Source: Maylandia zebra | Lineage: Eukaryota; Chordata; Actinopteri; Cichliformes; Cichlidae | NCBI RefSeq assembly: GCF_041146795.1 | Contig: NC_135177.1 | Coordinates: 26,764,060-26,828,059, forward strand | Reading direction: 5' to 3' | Length of the DNA: 64,000 nt | In this document: piece by piece, positions 37,501 to 61,066 of the stretch | How positions within the stretch are numbered: the stretch's first letter is position 1 | Layout of the letters: each line of letters begins with the position of its first letter | Position numbers and translations under genes: made by a program | Notes under the pieces: model-generated | Databases searched by the model: none | The model's input: the letters and a program-made list of their open reading frames with translations, nothing else | What the model was told of the DNA's origin: nothing

Positions 37501-40500
37501 TTTTACACGGTATCACATGCTGTGTGATTTGTATAAGGTCATTCCATGTTTTGCATACTTGTCAGCAGTAGCATGCCAGTAAAACAGAATGCACAAGCAT
37601 AATGATTGATTAAAATCTGCTTAAAATCACACAGCATGAGGAACGTACACAAGTTGGGAAGCTTTTCTGTTTAAAAGCAATGCACAAAAACACTCAGATA
37701 TCTCACATGGCTTCTCAATTTGTTATGTTTTTTCTTTCATTGTTAATAGCAGTTAACAATAACTGCACTACATTTTCTGTTAGGCCTGTTGGCCCTGTGA
37801 GCTCTCGCTCTCTAGTTTACTGTGGTGCATTGAATGAAAAAAGGACAAATTAAAAATACAGGTTATTCCTGTGGTTTTCATGCTTTGTCACGTCAAGATG
37901 TCCTTTCGACTCCTTTCAACTCACGTTCAGATGGAGTCAGTTGAATTCAGAGGAAGTGGCATTTGCAAAATTGGATGTAATTTATGGTGCAATACTGACA
38001 CGCAAAAACTGCACACACGAAGAGACAAAATGGAGAACACGTCCCAACATCCACTGCACAGATGCTGGTGGACCAATTCTAGTGCAGTTCATTTTATTGC
38101 ATAGGGAGACGTTGGCAGACGGCACATACAAATTAAAATAAGGTGAAAAACCTGTTTTTCCATGCTGGTTGAGTTTAGTGAGAGTTGTGCCAATGGGTGC
38201 GAGGGCTTGTTTGACAACTTCCTGTCCTCTAGTGTCTTTTTGGTACTTGGTAATCCAGTCAAACTTGGGTATCTGTGTGGGAGTCCTGCAAACATCTGTG
38301 AAAAAAAGCAGGGAGGAAAAGAATGATAAAAGAACTGTAAACGATTCTTGCCTTAATGAGAAATTCGACAAGAGCCTGGTGTGCACTTTAAGGCAACACG
38401 AAAAGTGTTAAGAATGAGAAAAGTTGCATTTTGCAACTTCATTTTAAAGCTACCACCTAAAATTCCTTGTCTTGTTTTCAAAGTAAATTACCCTGTAAGT
38501 CAACCTCCATGGTTAAATTCACCTCTATGGGCTCACCGTGAGAATTTTTCTTTTTAACAACAGCCGGCATGCCATTTGTTCTTACCATCACTGGTGTCCC
38601 ACAGCAAATTAAAAGCCTTTGGGGCTCTACTGGGAATACCGCAAAAAACACACATCAGTCTTTGCTTGTGTTCATTTGGGACTTCCACCATGAAAATGGC
38701 GAACTGGTGGGAAAAGCGGCACATCCATAACAAAGCACACCATCTTTGACCTTTAACGGCCTGATACTTTCAGATGAACAGAAAGCAGGCTGTAAAATTG
38801 TGGTGCAAATTAACTAATAAAAAGGAAGTAACTTATCCTGTTAACTGTTGTCATGTCTAATTTTCATGTCCCATTGCTAAAAGCTATGTGCACAAAGATT
38901 AAGTAAGAACAGCGTATACTGTCCTAACTCCACCCTTCCCTCTCTGCCTGCTAGCAATTCTCGCACAGGGAAGTGTCACCACCAAAACAGCAATAACCAG
39001 GAGTCTTTTTCCAAATAGATATATTATGTGGTTTTCCAGAATAATATAACCTCTAGGTTATTAACTCAATATGTATTGTTTCACATAGGTTACTACAGCA
39101 AAATATTTGTGCTTTTTCACACTCTTCTTCACTTAAGATTCAAATGACCTGTCTTAAACAAATAAGATGCTGGTGCTACTGCGAATTAATACTTGATTCC
39201 AGTGAACCGACAGCTTTCAAAGGTTATTCTTGTTTCTTGCTGGATGTCATGTAAACACATCATATAGGGGCTAACCTACCACTCCACGCCTTGTTGACTT
39301 CGCTGAGGAAGAGACGCGAGTTGGAGCCAAAAGGAAGTTTGAGGTCTAATTCTTCATCTTTGTAGCTTATTCTAACTCTGGTATCAGCGCCTAAAATCAG
39401 AAGAAGAATGCAGGGGGCGAAAACAAGATGTTCATTATCGTGTGGTGCACCAGTTATGCAGCTTATTTCTAATTGGGCTGTAATGGAAACTAGCACACTC
39501 ACCCACAACCACAAGTTCCTCTGGTGAGGAAACTAAAAAGATTGTAGTATGAGAAATATGTTTCAGAGAAATTACCGTCACATTATTTTTGATTAGGTAC
39601 ACTGTTGAAATAGCATAAGGGAATATTTATTTGAGATGAGCTAAAAAATATTTAAACACTATTCACCTGTGACAACTGCAAAGTCGACAGAGATGGGTAT
39701 TATGGCCTCCAGCAATACATCGTCAGCAGTAATTGCCATTCTTCGATGGGTATAAATGAAGATTCTGTAAAAACATTACATTGTAATTTTAAGATTTGTT
39801 TAATGAAGTCTGTATTTCAGTTAGTTCTCTGCCTAACTAGAGCTAACACATGCACACTAAAAAATATCCCATGACTGTGGTACCTTTGTCAGGCAGGTTA
39901 GTGTAACTCTGTAGTGTACAGTGTTAAGCAGTGGGTGGTACTGCTGCCACCCACTTTTCTTAGAAAACACTTTTTAGACTGAATTCAAACAAACTGCAAA
40001 GAACTCATGTCAGAGATATTTTTTCCCCACCAAGCCACTAAAACTTACGCATGCTCGTTTGCAGACTCCACGAGCCCCAGCAGTCTGCTCTCTGTAGTGT
40101 CATCAAAGAGGACATCACATTGGACAGCATGATTACGTTTTAGTTAAGGAGAAAGATGTTGTTTACACTTGATGTTTAATATCATATTTATCTGCCAGAA
40201 AAAAAAAATACCTTTCAGCAAAGTCTACTACAGTGGGAACGTGAAACTGGATTTCTATTCCTTACAAGTAACTATTGCACTTTTTACAGTATTTCTTAAT
40301 TTCACAGAGTAATATCAAAAGTATAAACCAGTACATCTATATGTCAGCATATAAATAAGGCTAATAAACATATTTATAGATCAAATTTCCTCTCCCCGTT
40401 TACATGCAACAATTCACGTTCTTCTCCTCCTCCTTCTCCTTTAGGGGTTGCCACAGCAGATCATCTGCCTCCATATCATCTTATTCCTAGCATCCTGTTT

Positions 40501-41909
40501 TGTCACACCAACCCTCTGCATGTCCTCCTTCACAACATCCATGAATCTTGTGGTCTTCACCTGGAGGGAGCCTCGCAGCGCCATCTTCAAGACCCTTTCC
40601 CCTTTTGCTCCAAACCAGTCAAACTGAGCTGTGCCTCTGATATACTCATTTCTAATCCTGTCCTGGTCGTTCGCAACAAAAATCTTTCCAGCTCTCAGCT
40701 CTGTCTCCTGACTTTTTTTTTTAAATTTTTTTATCAGTGCCACTGTCTCAAAACCATATGTCACTTTGGATGGTTTATCCTATGTATTTAAACTACCTCA
40801 CTCCCTCACACCTTGCATCTTAGACCTGGCCCTCTCTCATTCTCACAAATGTATTTGGTCTCACTTCTACTAACTTTTATTCCTCTTTTCCCAAAAGCAT
40901 ACCTCCACCTGCTCCTTACTCTTACTGCAGATCACAACGTCTGCAGTAACTGTTAACTTGTCTATTTCCACTGCAAACAAGAAGGGGCTGAGAGCCGATC
41001 CATGATGCAATCTTACCCCCGCTTTGAACCCATCTGTTACTCCTACCGCACACCTCACCTCTGTCTTGCTGTCCTCATACATGTCCTGTATCACCCTCAC
41101 ATACTTCTCTGCCACTTCTGACTTCCTCATACAGCACCAAAGTTTCTCTCTTAGTACCGTATCATATGATTTTTCTAGACCCACAAAGACTCAGCACAAC
41201 TCCTCCTGATTGTCTCTGTACTTCTCTATCAGCACTCTTAAAGCAAAAATCGTGTCTGCAGGGCACTTCCTTGGCATGAAGCCATACTGCTGCTAGCTCA
41301 AATCCTCTTCTTAACTTGGCTTCAGTATCTCTACCCAAACTCCTTATGGTATTATGCAACACTTCATGTTATTACCATATTATTAAAAGAGGAATGACAG
41401 TAACAGTAACTACTCTCTGCACCTTGTTTTGAAAACATATTTTTATGCACATCTTACTTTAAGACAATGACAGTGAAGTTATAGGATCACCAGCACTGAC
41501 AACAAAGACAAAGCACACAGCTGCCACCTTGTGGACAACGTGTCTCACTACAGTATTGAGTACATGTTACCTATTTGAAGGAACTGCTGACTAGACTAGT
41601 TTTTAATCTAAAAACAAAAGCACCAATAAACTCCATGTGCACTCAACTGCAATGCCCGGATAGAAGCCTAAGTAAAGCTACTCTTTAGTCAGAAAGATGA
41701 CAGCCAAGTGGCACAACCCAACAGGCCCCATTTCGAGCTCAGCAGACAGAAAAGCTGTTGCGCCAGTCAAACGCGGTTTTTTGGAAGCATGTAATCTATA
41801 GTCTGATTCGCTGGTCAACCAAGAACCAATGCGTGTGAGTCGGGAAGGATACCATGATGCAGTTTTCTTCCCTTTCTAAAGTTTCTTGAATTGCGACGGA
41901 CTGATCCAT
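22507..41909 (-). CDS. inpp5b: Type II inositol polyphosphate 5-phosphatase INPP5B
   Basis: Removes the 5-phosphate from PtdIns(4,5)P2 and PtdIns(3,4,5)P3 on endosomal, Golgi and ciliary membranes (known family role). I place 22 coding exons with continuous phases, 893 aa: 41909-41853, 40128-40049, 39764-39667, 39390-39276, 38285-38152, 34667-34577, 34048-33878, 30907-30806, 30514-30400, 29544-29428, 27518-27331, 27223-27112, 27025-26916, 25560-25425, 25311-25201, 24998-24833, 24572-24337, 24200-24093, 23818-23734, 23296-23169, 23074-22963 and 22616-22507. Domains in order: N-terminal PH (from [24 protein letters not shown]), linker, 5-phosphatase ([41 protein letters not shown]), ASH domain, and a RhoGAP-like domain. 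The protein ends HFLTQSSS, without the CaaX box of mammalian INPP5B. Introns 1 and 19 look U12-type. Confidence 0.96.
23297..23733 (-). other. inpp5b: U12-type intron in the inpp5b RhoGAP region
   Basis: The donor on the minus strand reads GTATCCTTTC (23733-23724), an exact match to the U12 5' splice consensus. The acceptor is CTGCAG (23302-23297). Two branch-like motifs lie upstream: ACCTTGAC (A about 22 nt from the acceptor) and TCTTGAC (about 8 nt). The junction is phase 1 and joins GMPESL to [10 protein letters not shown], which matches the family. Confidence 0.75.
25867..26428 (+). mobile_element. Tc1/mariner-like remnant, family A copy 2, with both ends
   Basis: Starts ACACTCGCTGGCCACTTTAT and ends with the near-complement TAATAAAGTAGCTGTGAGTGT, so both terminal inverted repeats survive. 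The interior keeps the leader (CCAATTATGTGACAGCAGC) and then scattered 3' transposase segments (CCTCACAACCTACCTGAGTA, CTTTATGACCACAGT, CACCAGATCTCAATCCAATA). The middle of the transposase is deleted, so the copy is non-autonomous. It lies in an inpp5b intron between 25560 and 26916. Confidence 0.85.
27976..28025. repeat. 50-nt hairpin with a 21-bp arm
   Basis: AACTGCCTCATGCATTGCCA(T) at 27976-27996 pairs with 28005-28025 with one mismatch in 21 positions, leaving an 8-base loop. It lies in an inpp5b intron. It could be a miniature palindromic repeat or a small structured RNA; nothing in the sequence decides between these. Confidence 0.8.
28596..28703. repeat. Old interspersed repeat, left part (interrupted)
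   Basis: The segment with TTCAGGGTCATGGTGGGGCT and CACCCTGGACAGGTCCATTA is the first part of a repeat that resumes at 29116 after an inserted hAT element. A related downstream segment also occurs at about 63655-63830. The class is not certain. Confidence 0.6.
28704..29115 (+). mobile_element. Non-autonomous hAT element with a zinc-finger-encoding transposase remnant
   Basis: Both ends carry a perfect 21-bp terminal inverted repeat beginning CAGGGGTGCACATAAGTGG. The element is flanked by identical 8-bp duplications, ATTATAAA at 28696-28703 and 29116-29123, the hAT hallmark. The 412-bp interior has an ORF from 28806 ([23 protein letters not shown] and onward) whose middle contains [20 protein letters not shown], resembling the N-terminal BED/TTF-type zinc finger of hAT transposases. 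The catalytic part is absent, so it is an internally deleted derivative that needs a transposase in trans. It lies in an inpp5b intron and is nested in an older repeat. Confidence 0.93.
29116..29305. repeat. Old interspersed repeat, right part (interrupted)
   Basis: Continues the repeat broken at 28703, with ATAAACCCATAGGCAATATG, CATCAATTAACCTAACC, GAGAGAACCCACACATGCAT and GGGGAGCACATGCATACACC. The same blocks (CACCAATTAA, ACATGCATGTCTTTGGACTG, CCCACACAGGTATGGGG) occur at 63655-63830. This is a very common motif order in teleost genomes. Confidence 0.65.
31671..31697. repeat. (AAC)n microsatellite
   Basis: A short run of about seven to nine AAC/CAA units after an A-rich stretch, in an inpp5b intron. 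Confidence 0.8.
31744..32241. mobile_element. MITE-like element, possibly PIF/Harbinger
   Basis: The left end (AAGCTCCTTTTCCATTAGG) and right end (CATGGAAAAGGGGACTT) are imperfect inverted repeats sharing CCTTTTCCAT. A segment reading GTCCCATTTTAGTACYTG is repeated inside. The interior is non-coding. The superfamily is a guess from similar teleost elements, and the edges are uncertain by several bases. Confidence 0.5.
34668..38151. other. Large inpp5b intron, possible internal promoter region near 36.5-37.3 kb
   Basis: This 3.5-kb intron has no recognised transposon. A patch at about 36580-37330 is richer in CG dinucleotides than the rest of the intron (for example ATTCGCGGCG and CCCGGCCGG) and might be an alternative promoter, but I see no start-exon with clear coding similarity. 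The rest is AT-rich with nothing recognised. Confidence 0.3.
40129..41852 (-). other. inpp5b: inpp5b intron 1, U12-type with an apparently non-AG acceptor
   Basis: The donor after the ATG codon of NCIM is GTATCCTTCC (from 41852), an exact U12 donor. On the minus strand just upstream of exon 2, TTTCTCCTTAACTA contains the exact U12 branch motif TCCTTAAC. Alignment to the family (NCIM-A-VQ against CVI-A-VQ in mammals) and phase place the acceptor before GCT at 40128. The last two intron bases are then AT, not AG or AC, with 15 nt between branch A and exon. No AG occurs between the branch and the conserved VQCDVLF codons. Confidence 0.6.
40440..41345 (-). mobile_element. LINE fragment, reverse transcriptase and 3' end, RTE-like
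   Basis: On the minus strand, 41184-40870 encodes a reverse-transcriptase segment ([46 protein letters not shown]-like block and [18 protein letters not shown]). After a gap, 40764-40441 encodes the C-terminal region ([28 protein letters not shown]). The catalytic FADD box region is missing, so it is dead. The RTE-type assignment comes from recognised motifs and was not searched. It lies in inpp5b intron 1, in the gene's own orientation. Confidence 0.75.
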
Positions 41910-44830: not shown

Positions 44831-45818
44831 CATGGCTTCCCATCTAGCAACAGTCAGTATTTTTTGCAATGTAAAGCTTATTTTAAAAAGTAACAGGTAC
44901 TGTAACTGGAGCTATGGATAAAAAAAACACAAAACAAGGGAATTTATGTGATTACTTTATGAACTTAGGTTGAGGGAATGTAGACTTTGCTAAACCGCGA
45001 TCCACTAAGTACACTCCGAAAGCTGTAGCTGGGGAAAAACTTATCAGACATATTACATAAGATTTATTTTATTTTATTTTAAAGCATTTTTGATAGTGTA
45101 CAGTGCACAAAACTAGAATTCACATATTCTAATTTCATTTAGCATTGATGCAACATGAATGTACCACAAAATATACTTTGTAAATCCTATAGTAAATACC
45201 TCAAAATCACAAAATGTAGCTAAGTGCACTGACTTGCATGTGTCATTAATGTTACATCTACAGGAATTATTCAACAAACCTTCAAAAGACAACTCCCTGT
45301 TACAGCACAACATTTGTGTTTTATAAAGTGCATGTAGTTGTATCTGCATTACTACAACAAAAGCTTGAAGAAGAGATTTAATCTTATATCAATAATGGCA
45401 ATAGATAAGGACATTTCCGAACGTACAACAAGGTACTTAGCGGTTTAAAATAACTTAAAAGTTTATTTTACTTTATCAATCTGTTGCTTATAAAGATCAC
45501 TTGTATGATCAACTGATATGTTGCTTCTGGCTTGTTTTTCTGGATTCCTGAAAATAGTATTTCATAGAGAAATACTGTTCAAAGCCATTTCAGTGGTCTG
45601 GAACCAGACATAAACGGGACTGGAAAGTTTAAACAAGAAGCACAATCAACATTGCAATTAATGTTTTCCATATTTCCATACCTATACAATTACATATGAA
45701 TATAAAAATATTCATATTAATATCTTTTCTACATTTTCTTTGTAACTTTGGAGAAACTAGGAGTTACACAAAGCGCTACTTACCCAATAACGCACACAGC
45801 AATTGAGCAAGCATGTTC

Positions 45819-48800
45819 TCAAAGCAGAAAAGCGATAGCAACAATACAAAGTAAGGAAGCTATCAGTTCTGTGTGAAGATATGGACCTCTTGTGGCAAAA
45901 GAGGGAACATTTAGTGTGCCATTCAACCATAGGCAAGAGGTCATTGTGGCATTGCAGCACTCCAGATTACATGGAGGTTTGGTTGAAGCCTTGCAAGCAG
46001 TGTAGCCAGTGCAGTTGGTGCAACCCGCTGTCCATTTTGTGGCAGTATCTGTAGACTCATTTTTCAGCTGCAAAGACAATGAGTGAGAAAGATCGGTGTA
46101 GGGCCTATGAATGGTAAAAACTGTAAATATGAGGCTAATGAAGTTTGTTTATTTATGCTCATAAAATGTATCGTAGAGGTACTTCTTATGTTTGTTTTTC
46201 AGATTCTTTTGTATAAATAATTTATTCCTTAACCGATTCAAATAAAAAGCTATTTTGAGTTCATATTGGTACATTTTATGCCCCCTGGTTCCTTTTTCTT
46301 GTATATTCTCCAAATTTTGATAAATTCAGAAAGTAAATTCATAGATTTATAACAAAGTTTGTGCTGAAGCAAGGATAGCATGAAGACGGTGTCAGCTTTA
46401 AAAGCACTAAACAAACAGAAATACGAGTGTGTAGAAGCTCAGAAAAAACAACTGCAATGAGGCTGGAAAAATTAATGAATGTTATATTTATGCTATTGAA
46501 TGTTCTTACCTGACAATGTGGTTCTGAGGAGGAACACATTTGTAGCATGGTGAAACTTGTATAGCAGTTTGCGCTGGTGCATGTACCAGCACGGCACTTT
46601 TTTCCCTGACAAAAACAACAGCGCAAGAAACATAAAACTTATTTCAAACCAAGTCTCATTTACACTGCTGGACAAAGTGGTTTTTCAGTCCACACTCCAT
46701 TAACTTGTTAAATTGTTGACAGGCAGTTTATTAACCAGTCAAAGATAATCATTATTAGAAAAAAAGGTAATACTTTTGTTAAACATAGTGATTCTGTTGG
46801 AAGCAAGGAACAGAGGAAGTTTGTAGCTGACATTTAAGAAAAGGGGACTGTGGTGTTAAAGGCCAAATTAGTTTTGTTTAGTGATACACAGCCTTCTTCC
46901 CGCATGCACATTTGCTTGCCAAAAGATTCATTCATGCAGCCAGCAGTTCTTACATTGTTTGCTGTTGTTTGACTGGTAGTAGTTGTAGTAGGGGCCTGCG
47001 TGGTTGTTGGTTTTGTGGTTTGAGTTCCTAAAAGTAGATAAAGGAGAAGAACAAAACAATATACAGTGATGTTTTTTTTTAAGATTTAAAAATTGATCAT
47101 TTGCAAAGACAACAGGAGCATGGTAATTCAAGGAGTTTGGAGAGAAAAGCATCTGGACTTCTTTAAGTTGCTTGAAGACTTGCTAGCGTCACCCTTGGCC
47201 AGCCTTGGTCCACTTTAAGAAACGTCTTAAAGCAACTTAAAGAAGTCCAGATGCTTTTCTCTCCAAGCTCCTTTGACTACGATGACCTGGATGACTGAGA
47301 ACCTTCACAGACATATGAGCATGGTAAAACATAAAATATTTATGAGTGCTCAAATGAAGTGATTTAAAAGAAAGGTGTAGTTACCATTGGTTGTTATGCT
47401 CATCATGGATGCAAAAGTGTAATTGAGACAGCCAGTGAAATTACAGCAGTTCACAGCACAGTTGGTCTGGGAGGCATTCTTGCAGCTGTCAGCACAAGAG
47501 TTGCTGCAGCTGGCAGTATACCACATGTCTGTTTGCCTTAACAACTGAGATATAACAGAAAGATTAGAGAGACGCATCTAATTTCTTTAATTTCTATACT
47601 ATGTTAATTTATTTAGAAAAAATAAATGTATTTTCCCTTTAATAGTCAGTTATAGATACCATGCAATCTTTTGACTGCTCAATTCCTTAAAAAGAGGGAT
47701 TTGTAATTGCTATGGCTCAAATAGTTTCTTAGTTTTTAGTGCCATTAGCTGACTGCCCTACCTGACAACAATTATCGACAGCACACGGAGTGGTGTTCTG
47801 ACTGATGTACATTGAATAGCAGTCAGAGTAGTTACAGTTGAATGAGGGGCAGTATATCTGTATTTGAGAGAATTAAGAGGCATGTGATGAAGAGGCTTGA
47901 AGGAATGAAAAACACTCATAGATAAGTGAACAGAAGAAGGAGAATATTTGACTTGCCTTAGTGGTTCCATTCTCAGTCATGTCACCTGTGATAGAGAGAC
48001 AGATGTCATGACTGGAGTTTTTTAAAGCAACACAACATTGATTGTAAAAGATCTATTTAATTTTGATGCAAGAACAAATTAAAATGTGAATGAATGAAAA
48101 AAAGAAAAAATGAATGAATAAAAAATACCCCTCCCCAAACAAACAAAGAAACAAACAAAGAAACAAAGAAACAAACAAAGAAACAAACAAAGAAACAAAG
48201 AAACAAACAAACAAACAAACAAACAGCAAAACACACACATACTAAATGAATGAATGAATGAACAAATAAGTAAGGAAATAAATACATAAAAAACTGACTG
48301 GTGTTCATCTTTGTGGTTAAAGAACTGGAAGATGAAGTGGTAGTTGGCGTGGTGGGTTTGGTCGTGGTCGTAGAATCAACTGGAGACAAGGAATTGATTG
48401 ATTGGTTGATTATTAATTTATTTTGATCATGTAAACAATATACAAGTACATTTAGCAAAGACTTGAAGAGACAAAATGTTATACAAAACAAAGCTAATAC
48501 ATTTCAATATTGCTTCAACTTTACTGATTCAGTTTGTTAAGTTTGTTGTTGAATTAGTAGAATTGGCTGAATTAAAAGAGTGGATAGAAGTTAAAGATAC
48601 AGCATTGCCAAAGGCTTTTGTATTGGTACCAGTGCTTGGTGACCCTCCTGAGTTGGGAGGATTGAGTAGTGATAGATACTGAGTTTCCAGAGATGTGTAT
48701 ATTTGTCAGGGATTGCGTGTCAGTAAATGCTATACCTGTGTAAGTGGGTAAGGTTGTGTGGAATTGCATTGTGGTGGGTAAATCAACTATAGAAGCAGGT

Positions 48801-51800
48801 GTAGTTGTGGGGGACTGGCTGGTGGTCAATGCTGTGCCTGTGCCTGTGGATGTGGGGGACTCACTGGTGGTTGATGCTGTGCCTGTGGATGTAGATGTGG
48901 GGGACTCACTGGTGGTTGATGCTGTGCCTGTTAATGCGGATGTGGGGGACTCACTGGTGGTTGATACTGTACCTGTGGATGTAGATGTGGGGGACTCACT
49001 GGTGGTTGATGCTGTGCCTGTGGATGTAGATGTGGGGGACTCACTGGTGGTTGATGCTGTGCCTGTTAATGCGGATGTGGGGGACTCACTGGTGGTTGAT
49101 GCTGTACCTGTGGATGTAGATGTGGGGGACTCACTGGTGGTTGATGCTGTACCTGTGGATGTAGATGTGGGGGACTCACTGGTGGTTGATGCTGTGCCTG
49201 TGGATGTAGATGTGGGGGACTCACTGGCTGTTGATGCTGTGGCTGTGGATGTGGGGGACTGGCTGGTGGCCAAATCTATTCCTGTTAGTGTGGATGCAGG
49301 GGACTCACTGGCGGTTGATGCTGTGCCTGTTAATGTGGATGTGGGGGACTCACTGGTGGTTAATGCTGTGCCTGTGGATGTAGGGGAATGGCTGGTGGTT
49401 GATGCTGTGCCTGTGGATGTGGGGGACTCACTGGTGGTTGATGCTGTGCCTGTGGACGTGGGGGACTCACTGGTGGTTGATGCTGTGCCTGTGGACGTGG
49501 GGGACTCACTGGTGGTTGATGCTGTGCCTGTGGACATGGGGGACTCACTGGTGGTTGATGCTGTGCCTGTGGATGTGGATGTGGGGGACTCACTGGTGGT
49601 TGATGCTGTGCCTGTGGATGTGGATGTGGGGGACTCACTGGTGGTTGATGCTGTGCCTGTGGATGTAGGGGACTGGCTGGTGGTTGATGCTGTGCCTGTG
49701 GATGTGGGGGACTCACTGGTGGTTGATGCTGTGCCTGTTAATGCGGATGTGGGGGACTCACTGGTGGTTGATGCTGTGCCTGTGGATGTAGATGTGGGGG
49801 ACTCGCTGGCTGTTGATGCTGTGGCTGTGGATGTGGGGGACTCGCTGGTGGTTGATGCTATGCCTGTGGATGTAGGGGACTCGCTGGTGGTTGATGCTGT
49901 GCCTGTGGATGTGGGGGACTCACCGGTGGTTGATGTTGTGCCTGCCGATGTGGACTGGCTAGTGGCTGAGGAAGAATGGGTAGTGAGCACTGTAATACCT
50001 TCATTGGTGGTAGAAGAGGGCTGGCTGGTACTGGGTGCTGTTGAGCTTTGTGGGGTGGTAGTGGCTGCTCCTGATACTCCTGATACTAACATGGATAGCA
50101 GAAATAGTCCTAAAGGGAGGACTCGCAGAATACCTGTAAAGTTGGGCATTTTGGAGGAAACATAATAAGACAGGATTGGGTGGATTTTTTTTTAACAACA
50201 TTGCATAATGTGCATGGACTGCATTTTCTGGGAAACTTTTTATAAAATTCTCTAATATTATGGTGATCAGAGAATAAATCATAATGAGTGATGATATTTA
50301 TCAAGGATTTCATGCAATATCTTAGCTTCTATTTGAAAGACTGGCACAAACACCAGGTAACTGGTTCTGAATATGCCTTACCCTTTTTTTATCCAGGTGC
50401 AAATCAACATAAAAACCATATATTACAGATTCACAATATGAGCAAACTATTTTGTTTTTTACTTATGCTGATAAAACTATAAATCTGTTAAAAAATACCG
50501 GGCCTAAGATGTTTATATATCTATATAGTGCCCTCGGGTTTGGCACCAATGCTATTGAAGCTTACCTTGGAACATGAGCAAAAGATATATAACTGGCTCA
50601 GACGTCGCCTGAAAAGTTCCCCATCAGGTGTTGACAAACCAGGACATACTGAACATGGACATACATGCACAAGAACTGGCATATGGAATTTATGAAATGC
50701 TACTACGCCTGCTGATCCAATGACAAAAGTCGCAGAGCATGTTTGAAGTTTGATTGAGTAGAAAGCACCTGGCAGATCAGTGCAATAACCTCAAATGAAG
50801 ACAGACAGACTGGTGAAGTCATATACTCCACTGGTTCTGAATGAAAAAGAGTCACAACAAGATGTCCATAACTGAGGCTCTAGAAAGTGCCAAACAAAGG
50901 CTCACCGCCCTGGCCACTAGGCTGAAGAGATACACCACAGAAGGAGAGCTGAAGAGAATAAATGATCTGTTATAATAACTTTGTCAGTGTATTGATCCCT
51001 GGCTTCTCCAGTTTACATGTGAATCCTTGGGCAAGATACTGAACCCAGAGTTTCCCCAGTGCTCCCATGAATGCATCTTGTGAATATAAAAATTTTGATA
51101 AAAGTGCTGTATGAATGTGCATGAAATTGGGTAAATGAGAAAACTGTTTTCAGTGCTCAGATTGAGTGGAAAGTATATAAGTGCCAATCTATTTACACTC
51201 ACGCCCCATTATAATAAACAGATACTTAACACTGTCCTTAACATCAGCTGTTAGGACTGTCATTCTTAATATTTAGCATAATGCATGATTGTACCTGAAT
51301 TTTGCATTACAGAGATTATTTTATGATATCATTATGATGATCGGACAGCTGGACCATTTAACCAACAGCCCTATGAAGCAAAATTTAGTACAATGATGCA
51401 TTATGCTCAATATTCAGAAAGATAATCCTAGTGGCTCCACAGTGTATTGATTTTCACATGTGCCTAACAAGCAAAGGTTTCCTTTGTTCAATCTTAGAAC
51501 GAAGCACAAAACCTTTTCAGGTTTTGTCAGGAAGGGCGTCTCGTATAAAAAGTATGTCAAATTAAATGTGGGTTACCTACTAAGACAACCCCCTTTAAAT
51601 AAAGGAGCAGTCAAAAGTAGTTTTCACTGGTAATAACATTTCTTACAAGCTGAGACACATAAACATGTGTCTCTAGCAACCACAGACTGACTGTAATCAT
51701 GGAAGCTTGTATTTATCTGCAGAAAGGCATGCCACTCTGGTGCACAGGTACCATGCCAACATGCGTGTGTCATCTTTTTATTCATGAGAGAGCAGTATGA

Positions 51801-53748
51801 CATCTTTGCTTTTGGGACATTAGCACTGGGTTCCCATAGTTTCAGTGGTTAGATGTGCATTTGTTTCTTCAAAAACATGCAAGACCTGAGCCCTAATGGA
51901 TGCAAGTTCCTTCGTGAGACATGCATATTGCCTATTAAACCAGCCAAATCCCAGTAATTTTATCTGATTTTCTCTATTCTGAACATACAACAAATACTCC
52001 ATGTCTTCTTTTTCCATTCCTTAGTTTTATTCCTTTCCTAACTTCAAGTCTAAGGTGCTGCAGAGGGCGCAATATGCTTGAAACATTAAAGTTGTGCAAG
52101 TTTTTTCTTAAATGATAGGCAGGATGGGTGGAAAATAAACAATCCTAAAACATATTGATTGAGTCTCCATTTCACCTGTGTAACAGAATATATATGTCAC
52201 CGAGAACAGTGCTTTTAAATAGAGAATAAAATACAAACTCATACCTGTGTCTTTTATAAAAGTAGTGGAGGTCATTATGCCACTGCCTGAAAGGGAGGGA
52301 GCTCTTCGTCCAGCCTGTAATTATATAATACCCATCAAATTCCCAGTAAACTCATTATCAGCATGAAAGAACATCTTGCATTGTCCTTCCTTTTTTTAAT
52401 ATCCACTGAGTTGTACTCAAAATTGAAGATTAATCTCACCAAGATAAATAAACTAAACAATAACTGCATTTCTGTATTGACAAGGTCTGTATCGGTGGGC
52501 ACAGTTCACACTGTTTACCCACGGTAATAGGTCTCTGAATTACAGCCATGCTCATTCATTGTAACACACCTGGGCACTTTGTTTGATCTGTGACAGCGTC
52601 GATGGTCATCAATGGTCTTCTCTTTTCACAAATCTCCAATTGTTCTGGTGAAACTGATCTCATAATTGTTTGGTTGAGTTACAATATAAGAAATTCAAAA
52701 GTAATGTGATATGTGACATTTAAACCTGTTGTGCTTTTTTTTTTTGCACAGTTTCTCAAGGAATTAGTTTCAGCATTTTCTGGTACTTTTTTTTTTAAAA
52801 CCAGCACTGCATGGTAATCCCCCCTATGAGGTAAAGTTTAGTTTTGTGTAGTGACACATAATTGTTTTTTAAGTGTCTTGCAGTGCAGTGAACACAATTA
52901 AAATGTGTTTGTTCCATGCTCAGTGCCCCTGGGAGAGCCACTAAGCAGCATGGCTTGTTTTTTCCTCTTCTTCCTTGGATCCCAGGGTGGCCTCCTGTGG
53001 GCTCTCCACCCTGGAAACTGACCGACAACAGTGGCCATTTTAACTTCCATGTCAAAATGCAGTTTAATTAGGAAAACTGGCAGGAATTTCTTGGTTTGGT
53101 GCAAGCTGTTTACTCTTAATGATGCCAATATACCTATTGTAGTGTCCTCCTTACACAAACTTCCTGTTTACATCATCTTATTGGTAAACTGCTGCTGCAA
53201 GACTCAGTCGATGTACTAGTTAGTGTTTGGCAAAAGCAGTCATGAATGATGTAATGTTTTGGGAATATTAGGAGGTTTCAGGGAAGGAATTAGTTGTATT
53301 AGCAACTGCCTATTCTATAAAGAGCAATGGAGAATAGGCAACACATGCTACAAACAGAACACCTGAGTATAAATTTTTAAATGATTTTGTAATCAAAATC
53401 CTCAAAGTGGTTCATTTTATAGACATCATAACACTAAATGTTTTTGAGACTGAAACTGAATATTACATTTTAAATATTAAGGGATATAAAACCTTTATTC
53501 AAATATTAGAAAAAACATTAGAAAAACATATTCACCATATTTGCACATGTAATATGTGAAATAATATTTTGTAACTGAAAAACGTACAATAGAAAACGAA
53601 GAAAACATCAGCCTGTTGTATAATTATCCAGCTTCAATGGAGCCGCCTGCTTGCTATGCGTAAATATAGCTTAAGGAATTTAAGTAAAACTAACAAAGTC
53701 CATCATTCAAAATCGGTAAAATCCACTCACCTGTGGTGCACTGGGCAT
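45819..53748 (-). CDS. Unnamed GPI-anchored mucin with a duplicated cysteine-rich module
   Basis: Not recognised as a named gene. Ten exons fit with continuous phases (756 aa): 53748-53731, 52314-52245, 50133-48736, 48379-48299, 47985-47957, 47857-47762, 47544-47385, 47027-46954, 46605-46510 and 46067-45819. Exon 2 contains a second in-frame ATG (52275); from there exons 2-3 give a good signal peptide (MTSTTFIKDTGILRVLPLGL, then FLLSMLVSGVSG). Exon 3 is a Ser/Thr/Pro repeat. Exons 4, 5 and 8 are Thr/Ser-rich linkers. Exon pairs 6+7 and 9+10 are two related cysteine modules: C-x4-C-x4-C in the first exon of each, C-x3-CC in the second. The protein ends in a hydrophobic tail (LIASLLCIVAIAFLL), fitting a GPI signal. 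Several N-glycosylation sequons are present. A secreted or surface mucin role is inference. Ly6/uPAR kinship is possible, but 12-13 cysteines per module is more than that fold has. Confidence 0.8.
47130..47273. repeat. 44-bp inverted repeat (intronic hairpin)
   Basis: 47130-47173 and 47230-47273 are reverse complements with a single mismatch over 44 bp (core GAGAGAAAAGCATCTGGACT), with a 56-base loop. It lies in the intron between exons 7 and 8 of the mucin-like gene. The arm and the following TTTGACTACGATGACCTGGA resemble a frequent teleost repeat family, so a transposon origin is likely. Confidence 0.9.
48136..48223. repeat. (AAACAAAG)n / (AAAC)n low-complexity tract
   Basis: An array of AAAC and AAAG tetranucleotides in the intron between exons 4 and 5 of the mucin-like gene. 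The minus-strand ORFs over it (FVCLFVCFFVSLF-like) are artefacts of the repeat. Confidence 0.9.
48780..49975 (-). repeat. Coding minisatellite, 39- and 45-bp units
   Basis: About 27 tandem units encode the Ser/Thr/Pro repeat of the mucin exon. The short unit reads ASTTSESPTSTGT (13 residues) and the long unit ASTTSESPTSTSTGT (15 residues). Variants include SQSP, SHSP, SALTGT and SASESP. Because all units are multiples of three, the array is open on both strands: the opposite strand reads VVDAVPVDVGDSL over and over. Confidence 0.95.
50790..50975 (+). mobile_element. Short retroelement ORF fragment
   Basis: The plus strand near 50860-50973 reads MSITEALESAKQRLTALATR then LKRYTTEGELKRINDLL, resembling the coiled-coil linker before the reverse transcriptase of teleost non-LTR elements. 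It ends at a stop. The segment before it is frameshifted. Family identification is tentative. Confidence 0.4.
51000..51195 (+). repeat. SINE-like repeat, copy 2 (body only)
   Basis: Has the body shared with the copies at 13990 and 61944: GAATCCTTGGGCAAGATACT, GAACCCAGAGTTTCCCCAGT and a diverged tail (TCAGATTGAGTGGAAAGTAT). The tRNA-like head is not recognisable. Confidence 0.5.
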
Positions 53749-56673
53749 GGTTTGTCTCAGCTGTGGTTGAAGTGAATGAGCTTTCTCCCACTGCAGAGTT
53801 CTCTCTTGCTCTCTGTCACCTCCCCTGTTTGCTTCCTGCTGATAGCACTGCTGATAGCAACGCAATAAGAACAAATTCTCAGCTGGACACTTATTCAAGT
53901 GTGAGAGGAGGAGACTAAAGGCTTGCACTTGCTGGATGCCCCACAATTAATGTTGTAATAAAAGACGATATTACTTTACAGTACTCACACAGTTTTGATT
54001 ACTCTGAGTTCAAATAAAAGTGTACATACCGAAACTTACAATTAACTGAAATAACTGAGTGGATTAAGCCTGTACTTGTCTATGAGAGCACAGGTGAGAT
54101 TTCAGTGTCCTGTGTGTTGATTGTATAGGGGGCCTCTTGGTTTCGGTTCAACACAATGTGAAATTAGACCCCCTTCTCTCTCCCAGCCATACGCCCCCTC
54201 TGCACGCTACAATTCGCTCTTTGTGGCTCAAAGAACATAAAATTCTTGGGCATGACACCAAAGAGTCTTGCACAATTTAGGTGACAGAAGTCCTTCCTTT
54301 TTTCACTGCAGCTCCAATAATAATAACGACATTTTTTCGGCTATGTATGGATAACTGTATGAAAATAACCCTCAAAACGGGAGTTTTCTGGATTTCTAAA
54401 TTAGGTGGAAAATCTGACTCTGAACTTTATTTGTACTTTCATTTAACGTTAGAGATTTCTCATTAGGCAGTGTTTGAGCTATTTTACTGTTAATTATATA
54501 AACATATTTAGAGATAATAGTGATTAAAAGACATAAAATGGTATAGAATATCTTATTTTAAAAACATAACAGAACAAGAGAATGTTTTTTCTTATTACAC
54601 ATCTTTGAAGTAATTTATTGGCCAAACCTATCAGGAATCACTCGCAGCACAACCTAAAGGTTAAAAGTTTGGACAGTGATCTCCTCATCTCCAGCAGAGA
54701 TGTCCCACTGACACCTAAAATACCATTAAATTTAAGATTTAAGTCCTAAAAGCAGGTAATGAGAACTTATTATCATAATTAATTATGCGCCTAATTCATT
54801 AATTGCATTGGGGTGTAAGTGGACACCCTCATTTTGAGTGAGATGATGTGAACTAAAGACATTTATTGGTGCTAAACATTCTGGAAAAGGCTACGAAACC
54901 ATCTTCTTTTGCCCATTTTGAAAATTGTAACCTCAGGTTTTTGGTGGTGTGGGAACAACTCAGTAGACTGATCTTTAAAAAGCTCAGACCAGCCCCATTG
55001 GATGATTAAGAACAATTATTCCACGTTTAAAATCACTTAAATCACCTTTCTTCCTGATTCCGATGATGTTTTAACTTTGGTAGGTCTTCTTTATCATGTC
55101 TGCATGCTGAAATAAATTGAATTAATGCCATATAAGACTATTTTCTAAGAATGAATGTTTAAAGTAGAATAAATAAAATGCGTATTTTGGATGTCAAACT
55201 CCTAAAAAAGTGTTGTGAGGAATCTGTAGCAAGCAGTTAATTATTAATCTGAACAGTTACATTACAGTCATTTCATTTAAATGCTTACATACTTTTTCCC
55301 CACTACAGACATATAGTATAGTATACATATAGTATATATAGACATGTTTTACTTACCCCAATTAAATGAATTATACTTTGTTATTTAATTATTAACTTTA
55401 TCCAGTTTTGGGATTAGTGTGATAATCTCACAATGTTTGAGTGATATTTTAGTTTGAAAAAATTATTTAGGAATTCAAGACTGAGTGTATCTGACTATTA
55501 ACAATCCATGATATAATTTTGCATTTTCCTTGGAAAATAATAAGTGTTTAAGTATCTTACATGTCCAGAAAATACAGGGTTGGTTAAAAATTCCATAAAT
55601 TGGATGCAAAACTATGTAAAGGTATATAATTTACATAATATAATTGATAATAACATCGACTGCAGATGACTGGGACTTTGCAAACACAGTCAAATGAGGA
55701 GCTATGATGGACTTAGATAATTATAATGTCATCGGCACTTTGCAAAACAGGTTATAAACCATTACTTGAGTGTGTTTTTTATTTTGTCCGTGACTATAAG
55801 TGTCTATATGTATGCATAAGAAATAAAACCCAAGATGTGAGATAATTGTTTTACTCTCTGAATTCTGCAGTAAATTGTCACAGCTTGTCATACTAAGTGT
55901 CACGTATCATGCAGCGCTATCATGTGCATGTGTATGTGTTAGTGCTGTGATAAACTGATGACCATGCTGTAAGGTGCTTTTGGGATAGCCTCTGGCACCC
56001 ACCAAAACCATTAACCACATAAATGGTTGCATATAAGCAACATGTGTTTGCCAGTCCTTTCTAATAACTATTTGAATTGGACGGCCACATATTTTGCTAG
56101 TTTTATGCTGCAGCCTTTATTAATTTTTGTGAAAGAAAAAATAATCTGAAGGCTGGTTTGGGTAAAATGGGAAATCCTTTAAGGTTCATACTGTTAATAA
56201 TATGAGCCTAAAATACAATTTACTTTTGTAGTTTCTTGGCCGCATTACTGTGGATTCTGTTCTGTCTTCATAAATTTGCTGAATATTTACCTCTATGTTG
56301 GTATGAACCTACAGATACTTGTAAAGGAACAAAAACCTTGTGCGTCACATAGGATGTATTTTTCAAACATCAGAGCTTATCAAGTCCAAATCTGACACCC
56401 AAAAGATATGAACACAGAATCAATCTTCCCTGGGAATTTTCTCTTTTTTTCTCTACCTCTTGCAAAATGCCGCCTCAAGTTTCAGGGCAAACTAATTAGT
56501 CTGATACACAGCTGGTGAGTCACTGTAGATGTTGCTAGGAGAATAACTAAGCACTTGCGTTGCCACTCCCTAGCAGTTTTCATGTCTCTGTGCACAGTCT
56601 GATCATTTATAATAGATGTGACTAAAAATATTATGTTTTATAGAAACTTTAAAAAAAAAGAAAAGAGGAACAC

Positions 56674-58317: not shown

Positions 58318-61066
58318 ATGACAGTCCTATGGGCTGTGTTTACGTGGGCAGTCAAAGGGATACTCTGCACCTGCAGGTTCCTTTGGGTGAGTGTATGCTC
58401 ATTATATTCACATCTGGGTAATCTGCTTACATCACAGTTTAATGAAGGCTCTTGTAAGTGGTGATTATAAAAAATTTAATCAGTGTTGATCTGCATTGCA
58501 GATATGTCCATACAATGCTATCAGATTCTTACCAAGGGAAAACCCCATTACAGAGGGCAAAAGCCATGAGTTGAAACAAGTTGTGGGTAAGAAACTCATA
58601 AAATCAAAGAGTGATCACCAGCACATTTAAAATATCTTAAAAATATTTAGTCAACTGTTAAACACTCAATTTCACAGTTTATTTTCTTAAAGCCTCTCTT
58701 CCTCCTTATGTAATCCTACTTCACATCCCCTTTGCTAATGTGCAGATTTAGATGATTACCTTATTTGATGTTATTTGTCAGGTGCCGAAAATAACAGGAT
58801 TGCCGCCATACCAGGTAGCCCTGACCGTACATTTGCCCTCCAGAAGAGACTGACCAAAACTGAAAAAGAGGTGCTATCACTGAAGACCAGGATTGCTTGT
58901 GAGAGAGCATCATGGGAAAGGAGGTTTACAGAGCTGAAGAGAAAACAGGAAGAGCTGCATAATCAGGTGTGTTTGTGTGTGAAGTTGTGTGTGGGTGGCT
59001 GAGGTTCTGTAATTATACCTTTGCCTCCTTTCCCTCAGCTGGAGTCTGGAGTGTTGGTGAAAGTGGGCAGTTACAGTGACCAGGGAGAGTCAGGAGTGGA
59101 CAATGGAGAAGCATTTGAAGAGTATTCAGGTAAATGGCAGTAACACAATTATGGCAATAACAGAACAAATTTTCATATGCACATCCTTTTGTATTTAGCC
59201 ATGATATCAGCTGCTAATGTCTCACGTGCAGGCGGCCTCCATCAGCGCAGAAGGTCTGACATGTCATCAAGAAGTGATAGTTATGAATGCAGTTTGTCAG
59301 GCAGCCAGTTATCTTCATCCTCAGCACAGAGTTCAAGACCTTCCTCCTCCTCAACTTCAGCCTCGAGGTATTGCTTTCAAAGAAACGGTTTGGCAGAGAG
59401 TTGGATAAAAAAATATTCTTATATCTATGCTCAGAAGTTTAACTGCAAACAGTGGAAACAGCAGGGACCATTTCAGAGTCATGTGAGGTCCTGTGTCCTA
59501 TTGAAAATGTATTATGTAAAAAATCGTTCGGCAACAGTTATAATCTTCCCTCTTTAGAAATGCACAGGGTGTATATTCAAAATATAGTTCCAAAAGCAAA
59601 TTTATTCATTACATGGAATATATTTTAGGATCATAATTCCTGATTTATCGATGTGTGTAATTTTCTTTCACTAAGAGAAGTTTTCTTTCTGCAGTGTGAG
59701 ATCATGGAGGAAATCTCAAGGGCCACATCGAGTTTTTGTTCCTCACTCCCCGATGGACTTACAGCTAGGCCATCGGGTCAGGATCATGCTGCCATCTGGG
59801 AGGATCAGCACAGGAATAGTTCGTTTCCTCGGTCACCTGCAGGGGGAGGTAGATCTCCACCTTGGAGTTGAGCTGCAAACTCCTGATTCAGGGCTATGTG
59901 ATGGGAGCCACCTGGGACACAGCTACTTTGAATGGTAACCAATGTCATTTTCCTACCAGCCGTACTCAAGCAACATGTATATGTTTTTGCTCTAAGGTTG
60001 TGCACCTTGACATTTAGTAATGTACTGCGATTTGGATGTGTGCACTAAGTAATGCTTTTTACAATAATCTCAGTATCTATTTAAATTCAAATGCTTCTAA
60101 ACCTTTACATTTGTTTTGAAGTGTATTTACCTTAAGCACCATTCTTTCACACAATTACATAATGTATTAATACATTAACTTTGATGGATTTGATATTCCA
60201 TAATTCAATATTTCACCATCTCAAGGGTTTACATTAAATGATATGAAAGCAGAAGAAAATCTCTGAATACATAACATGTTGAACCTTGAAGCAACACCAA
60301 GAGACTACATATGCATCTTTCAAGTGCCACAGCTTACCTGAGAAATGTGGCTGACCATGTCACTGACCACGCTGTACCCATCGTCTGATGGTTGCTTCCA
60401 GCTCAGATCATCTCAAACTGGTTTACCGAACCTGAAGATGAGTTCACTATAGTCAAATGTTCTCCACAGTCACCAGATCTCAATCTAATAGACCATGTTT
60501 TGGATGTGGTGAAATGGAAAACTTGCATCATGGATGTGCAGCTGACACATATGCAGCAACTATCTGTGAATATGGACCAAAATGTCTGAAGAATATTTCT
60601 TACAGCTTATTAACTTCATATCATGAAGAAGTAAGGCATTCCCGAAGGCAAAAGAAGGTCCAACATAAAACTGCAAGGTGTGCCTAATGAAGTGGCTGTT
60701 GGGTATTTTTTTAGGACTGTGCTGCACTGTGCTGCACATGCAGCTGTCAGGTCATCTTAGCTGTCTTTAAAGGCATGAGGTGCAACCTTGTAATGTGAAC
60801 TCACTTTCCTACAATGACAAACTTGACTGACTGCATTTGGAAATGTTACTTAAATGTAGTATTTTTTTACGAGACTGCAAAAGAACAAAACAACAATAAC
60901 AAACACACAACCTCCGCGACATCTAAAATATTAAAATTATAAATATAAGTGTGATTTTCTAACGTATAGTCTGTTTGAATAGTAACTTAATCTCCTTTTT
61001 TCCCCCAGCAAACCTGGATACGGGGCTTTTGTACCTTTCCACAAACTACTAATGGCATGGGAGTAA
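58318..61066 (+). CDS. Coiled-coil protein with a divergent CAP-Gly domain
   Basis: Not recognised as a named gene. Seven exons fit with continuous phases (287 aa): 58318-58386, 58502-58586, 58782-58966, 59039-59129, 59232-59367, 59695-59934 and 61009-61066. Order: an N-terminal region with a hydrophobic stretch; a coiled coil at about residues 73-113 (LQKRLTKTEKEVLSLKTRIA, WERRFTELKRKQEELHNQ); a Ser-rich linker; and a C-terminal CAP-Gly domain (about 213-287) with LGHRVRIMLPSGRISTGIVR, FLGHLQGEVDLHLGVEL, SYFEC and KPGYGAFVPF. CAP-Gly domains bind C-terminal EEY/F tails of tubulin and EB proteins. Here the usual W before GVEL is L and the GKNDG motif reads GLCDG, so binding may be altered. 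Exons 3-7 are firm. The start is less so: a short upstream ATG ORF (58286) precedes it and earlier exons are possible. Confidence 0.8.
60325..60707 (+). mobile_element. Tc1/mariner-like remnant, family A copy 3 (3' half)
   Basis: Keeps the 3' part of the transposase (TCTCCACAGTCACCAGATCT, CATGGATGTGCAGCTGACAC, AGGCAAAAGAAGGTCCAAC) and the right terminal repeat (GTGTGCCTAATGAAGTGGCT). The 5' half is absent. It lies in the last intron of the CAP-Gly gene. Confidence 0.75.

Follow-up and report, generated by a model that had tools for sequence, protein, structure and literature searches.

A predicted GPI-anchored, mucin-like surface protein with a minisatellite-encoded repeat and two cysteine modules in the cichlid Maylandia zebra

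What kind of protein, if any, is encoded where a Ser/Thr/Pro-coding minisatellite lies beside cysteine-rich exons in the genome of Maylandia zebra? The locus is on the minus strand of a 64 000-nucleotide stretch (C11:26764060-26828059 of a 962-Mb genome in 63 contigs), hereafter called the window, whose numbering is used for all positions below unless C11 is given. An earlier note on this DNA had proposed ten exons encoding a mucin held at the membrane by glycosylphosphatidylinositol (GPI). Sequence analysis leads us to consider it likely that the locus encodes a GPI-anchored mucin-like cell-surface glycoprotein of fish, probably a glycocalyx or mucosal shield. The predicted protein, of ~730 residues, opens with a signal peptide, continues with 27 Ser/Thr/Pro repeats and then two cysteine modules, and closes with a GPI-type tail.

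Exons are numbered here as in the ten-exon proposal (E1-E10), and all are on the minus strand. E3-E10 form a single open frame of 2199 nt (732 codons, no internal stop), and the seven introns between them (99-442 bp) separate exons whose phases match at every junction. E3 (48736..50149, beginning at ATG 50149 or, if spliced, at an acceptor at 50133) carries the signal peptide core and the Ser/Thr/Pro repeat. It is followed by a Thr-rich linker exon, E4 (48299..48379, phase 1 to 1), a short linker exon with a GC donor, E5 (47957..47985, phase 1 to 0), and the two halves of module A, E6 (47762..47857, 96 nt, phase 0 to 0) and E7 (47385..47544, phase 0 to 1). A second Thr-rich linker exon, E8 (46954..47027, phase 1 to 0), leads to the first half of module B, E9 (46510..46605, 96 nt, phase 0 to 0), and to E10 (45819..46067), which encodes the second half of that module, the GPI-type tail and the stop codon. 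An AATAAA on the same strand (45462..45467), 351 nt downstream of the stop, also counts in favour of this gene. The sequence supports eight coding exons and, as part of the overall mucin reading, we hold with reasonable confidence that the gene is a real protein-coding one. As side observations, the frame of E8 stays open beyond its donor (46837-46953, minus strand), with three cysteines and three N-glycosylation sequons before a stop, perhaps as an alternative end and perhaps by chance; and a donor-like GTAAGT (45778-45783, minus strand) starts 35 nt past the stop codon of E10, so that an intron in the 3' untranslated region (UTR) is possible.

Splice sites were scored with matrices, in bits. 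The acceptors of E4-E10 each rank in the top 10% of the region's 639 AGs and the acceptor at 50133 in the top 4.4%; the highest donor score among E3-E10 is that of E9 (11.0 bits), and the donors of E3 and E4 reach 4.6 and 3.0 bits, respectively. The minus strand of 45701-54000 was also scanned for cysteine-rich candidate exons, defined as having at least five Cys and at least 14% Cys. Five were observed, whereas 100 first-order Markov sequences averaged 0.08 and never had more than one; the five correspond to E6, E9, part of E7 and two out-of-frame reads overlapping E10. Cysteine content alone is no proof, since a looser cut applied to the whole window gave 17 candidates, of which 4 derive from a CA/TG dinucleotide repeat.

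The minisatellite (48806..49954, minus strand; 27.0 copies with a period of 45 according to Tandem Repeats Finder) encodes repeats of 13 and 15 residues. Anchoring in frame yielded 27 units, of which 11 have 13 codons and 16 have 15 (the last one, at the array edge, was cut at 15 codons), all of them multiples of three in length, which bears out the long Ser/Thr/Pro repeat of minisatellite origin that had been proposed. The first 480 residues of the protein are 34.2% Thr, 26.9% Ser and 7.5% Pro. Within the array, stops are absent from the coding frame and number 9 and 20 in the other two minus-strand frames; an open frame by itself proves little, because one of the array's plus-strand frames lacks stops as well. 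Differences between units at codon positions 1, 2 and 3 number 42, 48 and 106 among the 11 short units and 228, 220 and 341 among the 16 long ones, third positions being highest in both sets, in counts that are not independent because the units themselves are not. Single-base codon differences are synonymous in 54% (88/164) and 48% (149/312) of cases in the short and long sets, respectively. A 151-bp piece of the array has 10 matches in the genome, all inside the E3 repeat region, and the repeat looks locus-specific.

Upstream of the repeat, four 5' options are in frame: exons 53748-53731 plus 52314-52245 (756 amino acids), ATG 52275 (737 amino acids), ATG 50575 (730 amino acids) and the contiguous ATG 50149 (732 amino acids). 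The count of ten exons is therefore one option of four; of the proposal that ten exons join in frame, E3-E10 stand and exons 1 and 2 remain candidates. The putative E1 (53731..53748, coding or 5' UTR, in frame via 52314-52245) ends in a donor of 12.5 bits, the strongest among the upstream donors listed, which may close a 5' UTR exon. The candidate E2 (52245..52314) has an acceptor of 6.1 bits and a donor of 8.0 bits and is in frame. Another possible first coding exon (50566..50575, MFQ plus G) has an ATG and an 11.2-bit donor and joins E3 at 50133 in frame in phase 1; the acceptors upstream of it are weak. The signal peptide is unaffected by this choice, since its core, ILRVLPLGLFLLSMLVSGVSG, is common to all four options.

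The protein's 12 most hydrophobic windows are confined to its two ends, and the C-terminal end is followed immediately by the stop codon. As judged from hydropathy and sequence only, the hallmarks of a GPI-anchored protein are there, namely an N-terminal signal peptide and, at the C-terminus, a hydrophobic signal that runs up to the stop, in agreement with the ends earlier assigned to it. The C-terminus combines an S-F-A site with a hydrophobic stretch of 15 residues, which we take to match the GPI rule. Of 13 N-glycosylation sequons, 12 are outside the signal region. The suggested role as a surface or mucosal protein fits this anatomy and is still a prediction.

Between the repeat and the tail, the cysteines of module A are spaced C-4-C-4-C-11-C-4-CC-13-C-3-C-3-C-7-C-3-CC-4-C (13 cysteines, 69 residues from first to last) and those of module B C-4-C-4-C-9-C-6-C-16-C-2-C-5-C-7-C-3-CC-6-C (12 cysteines, 74 residues). 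Both modules show exactly the spacings reported in the earlier note for exon pairs E6+E7 and E9+E10 (C-x4-C-x4-C, then C-x3-CC), and the equal inner phase reported for the pairs was confirmed, both inner introns being in phase 0. E6 and E9 are further alike in that both are 96 nt long and end in TGTCAG at this intron. Duplication was assessed by comparing global alignment scores with those of 5000 shuffles, either full or with cysteines fixed. The A/B score of 71 was reached by 4 full and 115 cysteine-fixed shuffles, and the E7/E10 score by 18 and 189. E6/E9 alone is not significant (528 and 2059 of 5000), and for the cross pairs the numbers were 2393 and 2382 (E6/E10) and 1021 and 1460 (E9/E7). 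Taken together, these data weakly support a tandem duplication of the modules: similarity is weak at the residue level, and the 96-nt exon length and the place and phase of the inner intron provide independent support. If real, the duplication is old, because direct repeats of at least 18 nt in 45819-48000 amount to two 21-nt pairs (81% and 76%). The phases of E5 (1-0), E6 (0-0) and E7 (0-1) match those of E8 (1-0), E9 (0-0) and E10, with phase 1 at either end. The duplication thus probably copied three exons, a linker exon plus a pair, and not the pair alone as first proposed.

Relatives were sought in Pfam, in PDB sequences and in the species' own 962-Mb genome, fish protein databases and other fish genomes lying outside this scope. 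Pfam gave no family at E up to 10 for module A, module B or the whole protein. Among PDB sequences there were two rows for module A, regarded as chance matches (best E 0.23), and none for module B. Genome searches with E7, E10 and E9 (E6 alone was not searched) each returned the exon itself as the sole significant match: E7 hit four places, the three others at E of at least 0.34 and two of them with stops; E10 hit six, the five others at E of at least 0.26 and four of them with stops; and E9 hit one, itself. Such searches with single short exons would miss distant kin. In viral contigs, two stretches fit a pattern and no relative was found at E 1e-3. No description of such a gene was recognised among titles, abstract starts and passages of the open PubMed Central (PMC) literature, material that cannot show absence from print. 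The earlier statement that the protein matches no named family thus holds for Pfam, PDB sequences and its own genome.

Could the modules nevertheless be strongly diverged three-finger domains of the Ly6/uPAR (LU) family, two LU-derived units behind a mucin extension in a uPAR- or C4.4A-like surface binding protein? According to the available passages of PMC6600238, an LU domain is defined by 60-90 residues, ten cysteines and an Asn after the tenth, and its two-exon set generally has phase-1 flanking introns, with the two exons split at the loop 2 tip. The module sizes (69 and 74 residues), the two-exon build and the GPI-type tail are LU features in this sense (PMC6600238). In addition, if a ten-cysteine core is picked by eye within the 13 (A) and 12 (B) cysteines, the inner intron falls between its fifth and sixth members; module A, unlike B, ends in CC-x4-C; and the exon pair, entered at phase 0, is flanked by phase 1 on both sides when the linker exon is included. 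Foldseek gave a single row for module B, likewise a three-finger protein, but with E 8.7, a probability of 0.02 and a poor model. On the other hand, each module has 12-13 cysteines instead of the ten that pair 1-5, 2-3, 4-6, 7-8 and 9-10 in LU domains, no Asn directly follows the last of them (C-L-N in A, C-L-W-L-N in B), and the inner intron is in phase 0 instead of 1 and ~9 residues before the position seen in one LU gene of the genome (one residue past the fifth core Cys here; phase 1 and ~9 residues past it in the gene at C11:18.06 Mb). Pfam, UPAR_LY6 included, likewise gave nothing at E up to 10. LU sequences for a profile comparison came from a genome scan with PF00021 (no matches at E 0.001, 15 at E up to 10), in which 14 of the 15 loci were examined (L031 was left out) and five were dropped because their reading contained stops or pointed to something different (L020, L022, L029, L032 and L033); the nine loci used gave three full and four partial sequences. 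In hhalign the modules scored 0.1-0.4% against this set, compared with 98.7% for held-out LU, and no better than control shuffles (30 each; up to 5.8% for full and 0.7% for cysteine-fixed ones), so that LU membership by profile comparison is unsupported. We regard an LU origin as rather doubtful and do not assign the gene to this family; the resemblance is anatomical, and the modules may work in an LU-like way. Separately, a cluster of LU-domain exons lies on the same chromosome at C11:18.06-18.17 Mb (L019-L021, L024-L027 and L030).

Two further explanations have to be weighed with several observations that speak against a GPI-anchored mucin. The latter include the weak donors of E3 and E4 and the GC donor of E5, the odd cysteine count of module A, the stop-free plus-strand frame of the array and the mutual dependence of its units, the 115 of 5000 cysteine-fixed shuffles that reach the A/B score, an hhalign probability of 7.9% for module A against module B, structure models of poor confidence (mean predicted local distance difference test scores of 38.9 and 45.6) and the fact that the gene is known here from the genomic sequence of one species alone. 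The donors and the odd cysteine count, together with the lack of a significant paralogue in the genome (E7, E9 and E10 searched), would also suit a decayed or partly spurious gene, in which repeat and cysteine exons come from separate genes or a pseudogene. However, eight exons free of stops and frameshifts with phases matching at all junctions, cysteine-rich exons far above chance and the presence of both signal and GPI-type ends make decay improbable. It is, in contrast, somewhat more probable than otherwise that this is an ordinary fish gene with known orthologs, to which automatic annotation has already given a generic name; other fish mucin-like genes bear names such as mucin-5AC-like, cell wall protein DAN4-like or uncharacterized (PMC7720500 and PMC11346364, in the passages available).

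If the preferred reading of a GPI-anchored mucin-like protein is correct, the signal peptide would route the product into the secretory pathway, the repeat region would be densely O-glycosylated and stiff, the cysteine modules would carry several N-glycans and fold as compact disulfide-bonded units, and the hydrophobic C-terminal tail would be replaced by GPI. As module B directly precedes this anchor, the modules would sit at the membrane with the mucin brush outward; going away from the membrane, module B would be followed by the Thr linker, then module A, the further linkers and the mucin. With the mucin outward, shielding or anti-adhesion is more likely than a stalk lifting a binding head. 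The protein would then be a steric and anti-adhesive shield of the glycocalyx or mucosa, and its compact disulfide base may bind partners close to the membrane.

CD164/MGC-24 sialomucins have mucin regions beside a cysteine-rich region and a transmembrane segment with a cytoplasmic tail; the candidate is set apart from them by its GPI-type tail and lack of a Pfam hit. Classical mucins, as described in the available passages of a mucin inventory (PMC1552070), combine a Pro/Thr/Ser-rich (PTS) domain with VWD or SEA, MUC7 and MUC20 being exceptions. The candidate shares with them a tandem-repeat PTS region (27 repeats) within one large exon, and differs in its GPI-type tail and in having no VWD or SEA (Pfam, E up to 10). 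With the multi-domain LU proteins uPAR and C4.4A/LYPD3 it has in common tandem two-exon cysteine modules of ~70 residues, a signal peptide, a GPI-type tail and, in module A, CC-x4-C, whereas the long N-terminal mucin region, the inner phase 0, 12-13 instead of 10 cysteines, the lack of a post-Cys Asn and the absence of a profile match distinguish it (PMC6600238). GPIHBP1 and SP-10, in which, according to the same source, an additional exon encodes a disordered segment N-terminal to the LU domain, likewise place a disordered region before a cysteine module; here, however, that region is a long Ser/Thr repeat (it is acidic in GPIHBP1) and precedes two modules without demonstrated LU identity (PMC6600238). 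What would be new is a mucin-like protein beyond the PTS-plus-VWD/SEA rule, to which exceptions are known (PMC1552070), with a disulfide module as yet assigned to no family. This is probably a modestly novel surface protein and not a new kind of system. More tentatively, the modules could be copies of an undescribed disulfide domain, encoded by a linker exon and a pair split in phase 0. This GPI-anchored domain would bear a locus-specific minisatellite mucin, which would make the protein a kind of vertebrate mucin without SEA or VWD.

The surroundings of the gene are those of ordinary vertebrate genes, which also counts in its favour. Pfam domains in open reading frames of the window are YrdC, C2H2 fingers (presumably MTF1), a phosphatase domain, the INPP5B PH domain, CAP-Gly and a weak reverse-transcriptase fragment. 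The genes present and their order suit a bony fish. The candidate lies upstream of the INPP5B PH-domain exon (39263-39532); the CAP-Gly frame (59675-59935, plus strand) is beyond it on the opposite strand. The RVT_1 fragment (40873-41190, minus strand; E 0.0014, below the family cut-off) is probably an old long interspersed nuclear element. In the E7-E8 intron there is a foldback element (47119-47284) with 61-nt arms that are 90% complementary and separated by 44 nt; a 27-mer from one arm has 188 exact copies in the genome (90 forward, 98 reverse), compared with none for the pattern read backwards.

If confirmed, the gene would add to the vertebrate surface repertoire a GPI-linked mucin-like protein outside the PTS-plus-SEA/VWD rule, as that rule appears in the available part of the mucin inventory (PMC1552070). 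The length of its repeat may vary, as in other minisatellites, and could possibly be of use in studying mucosal barrier variation among fish.

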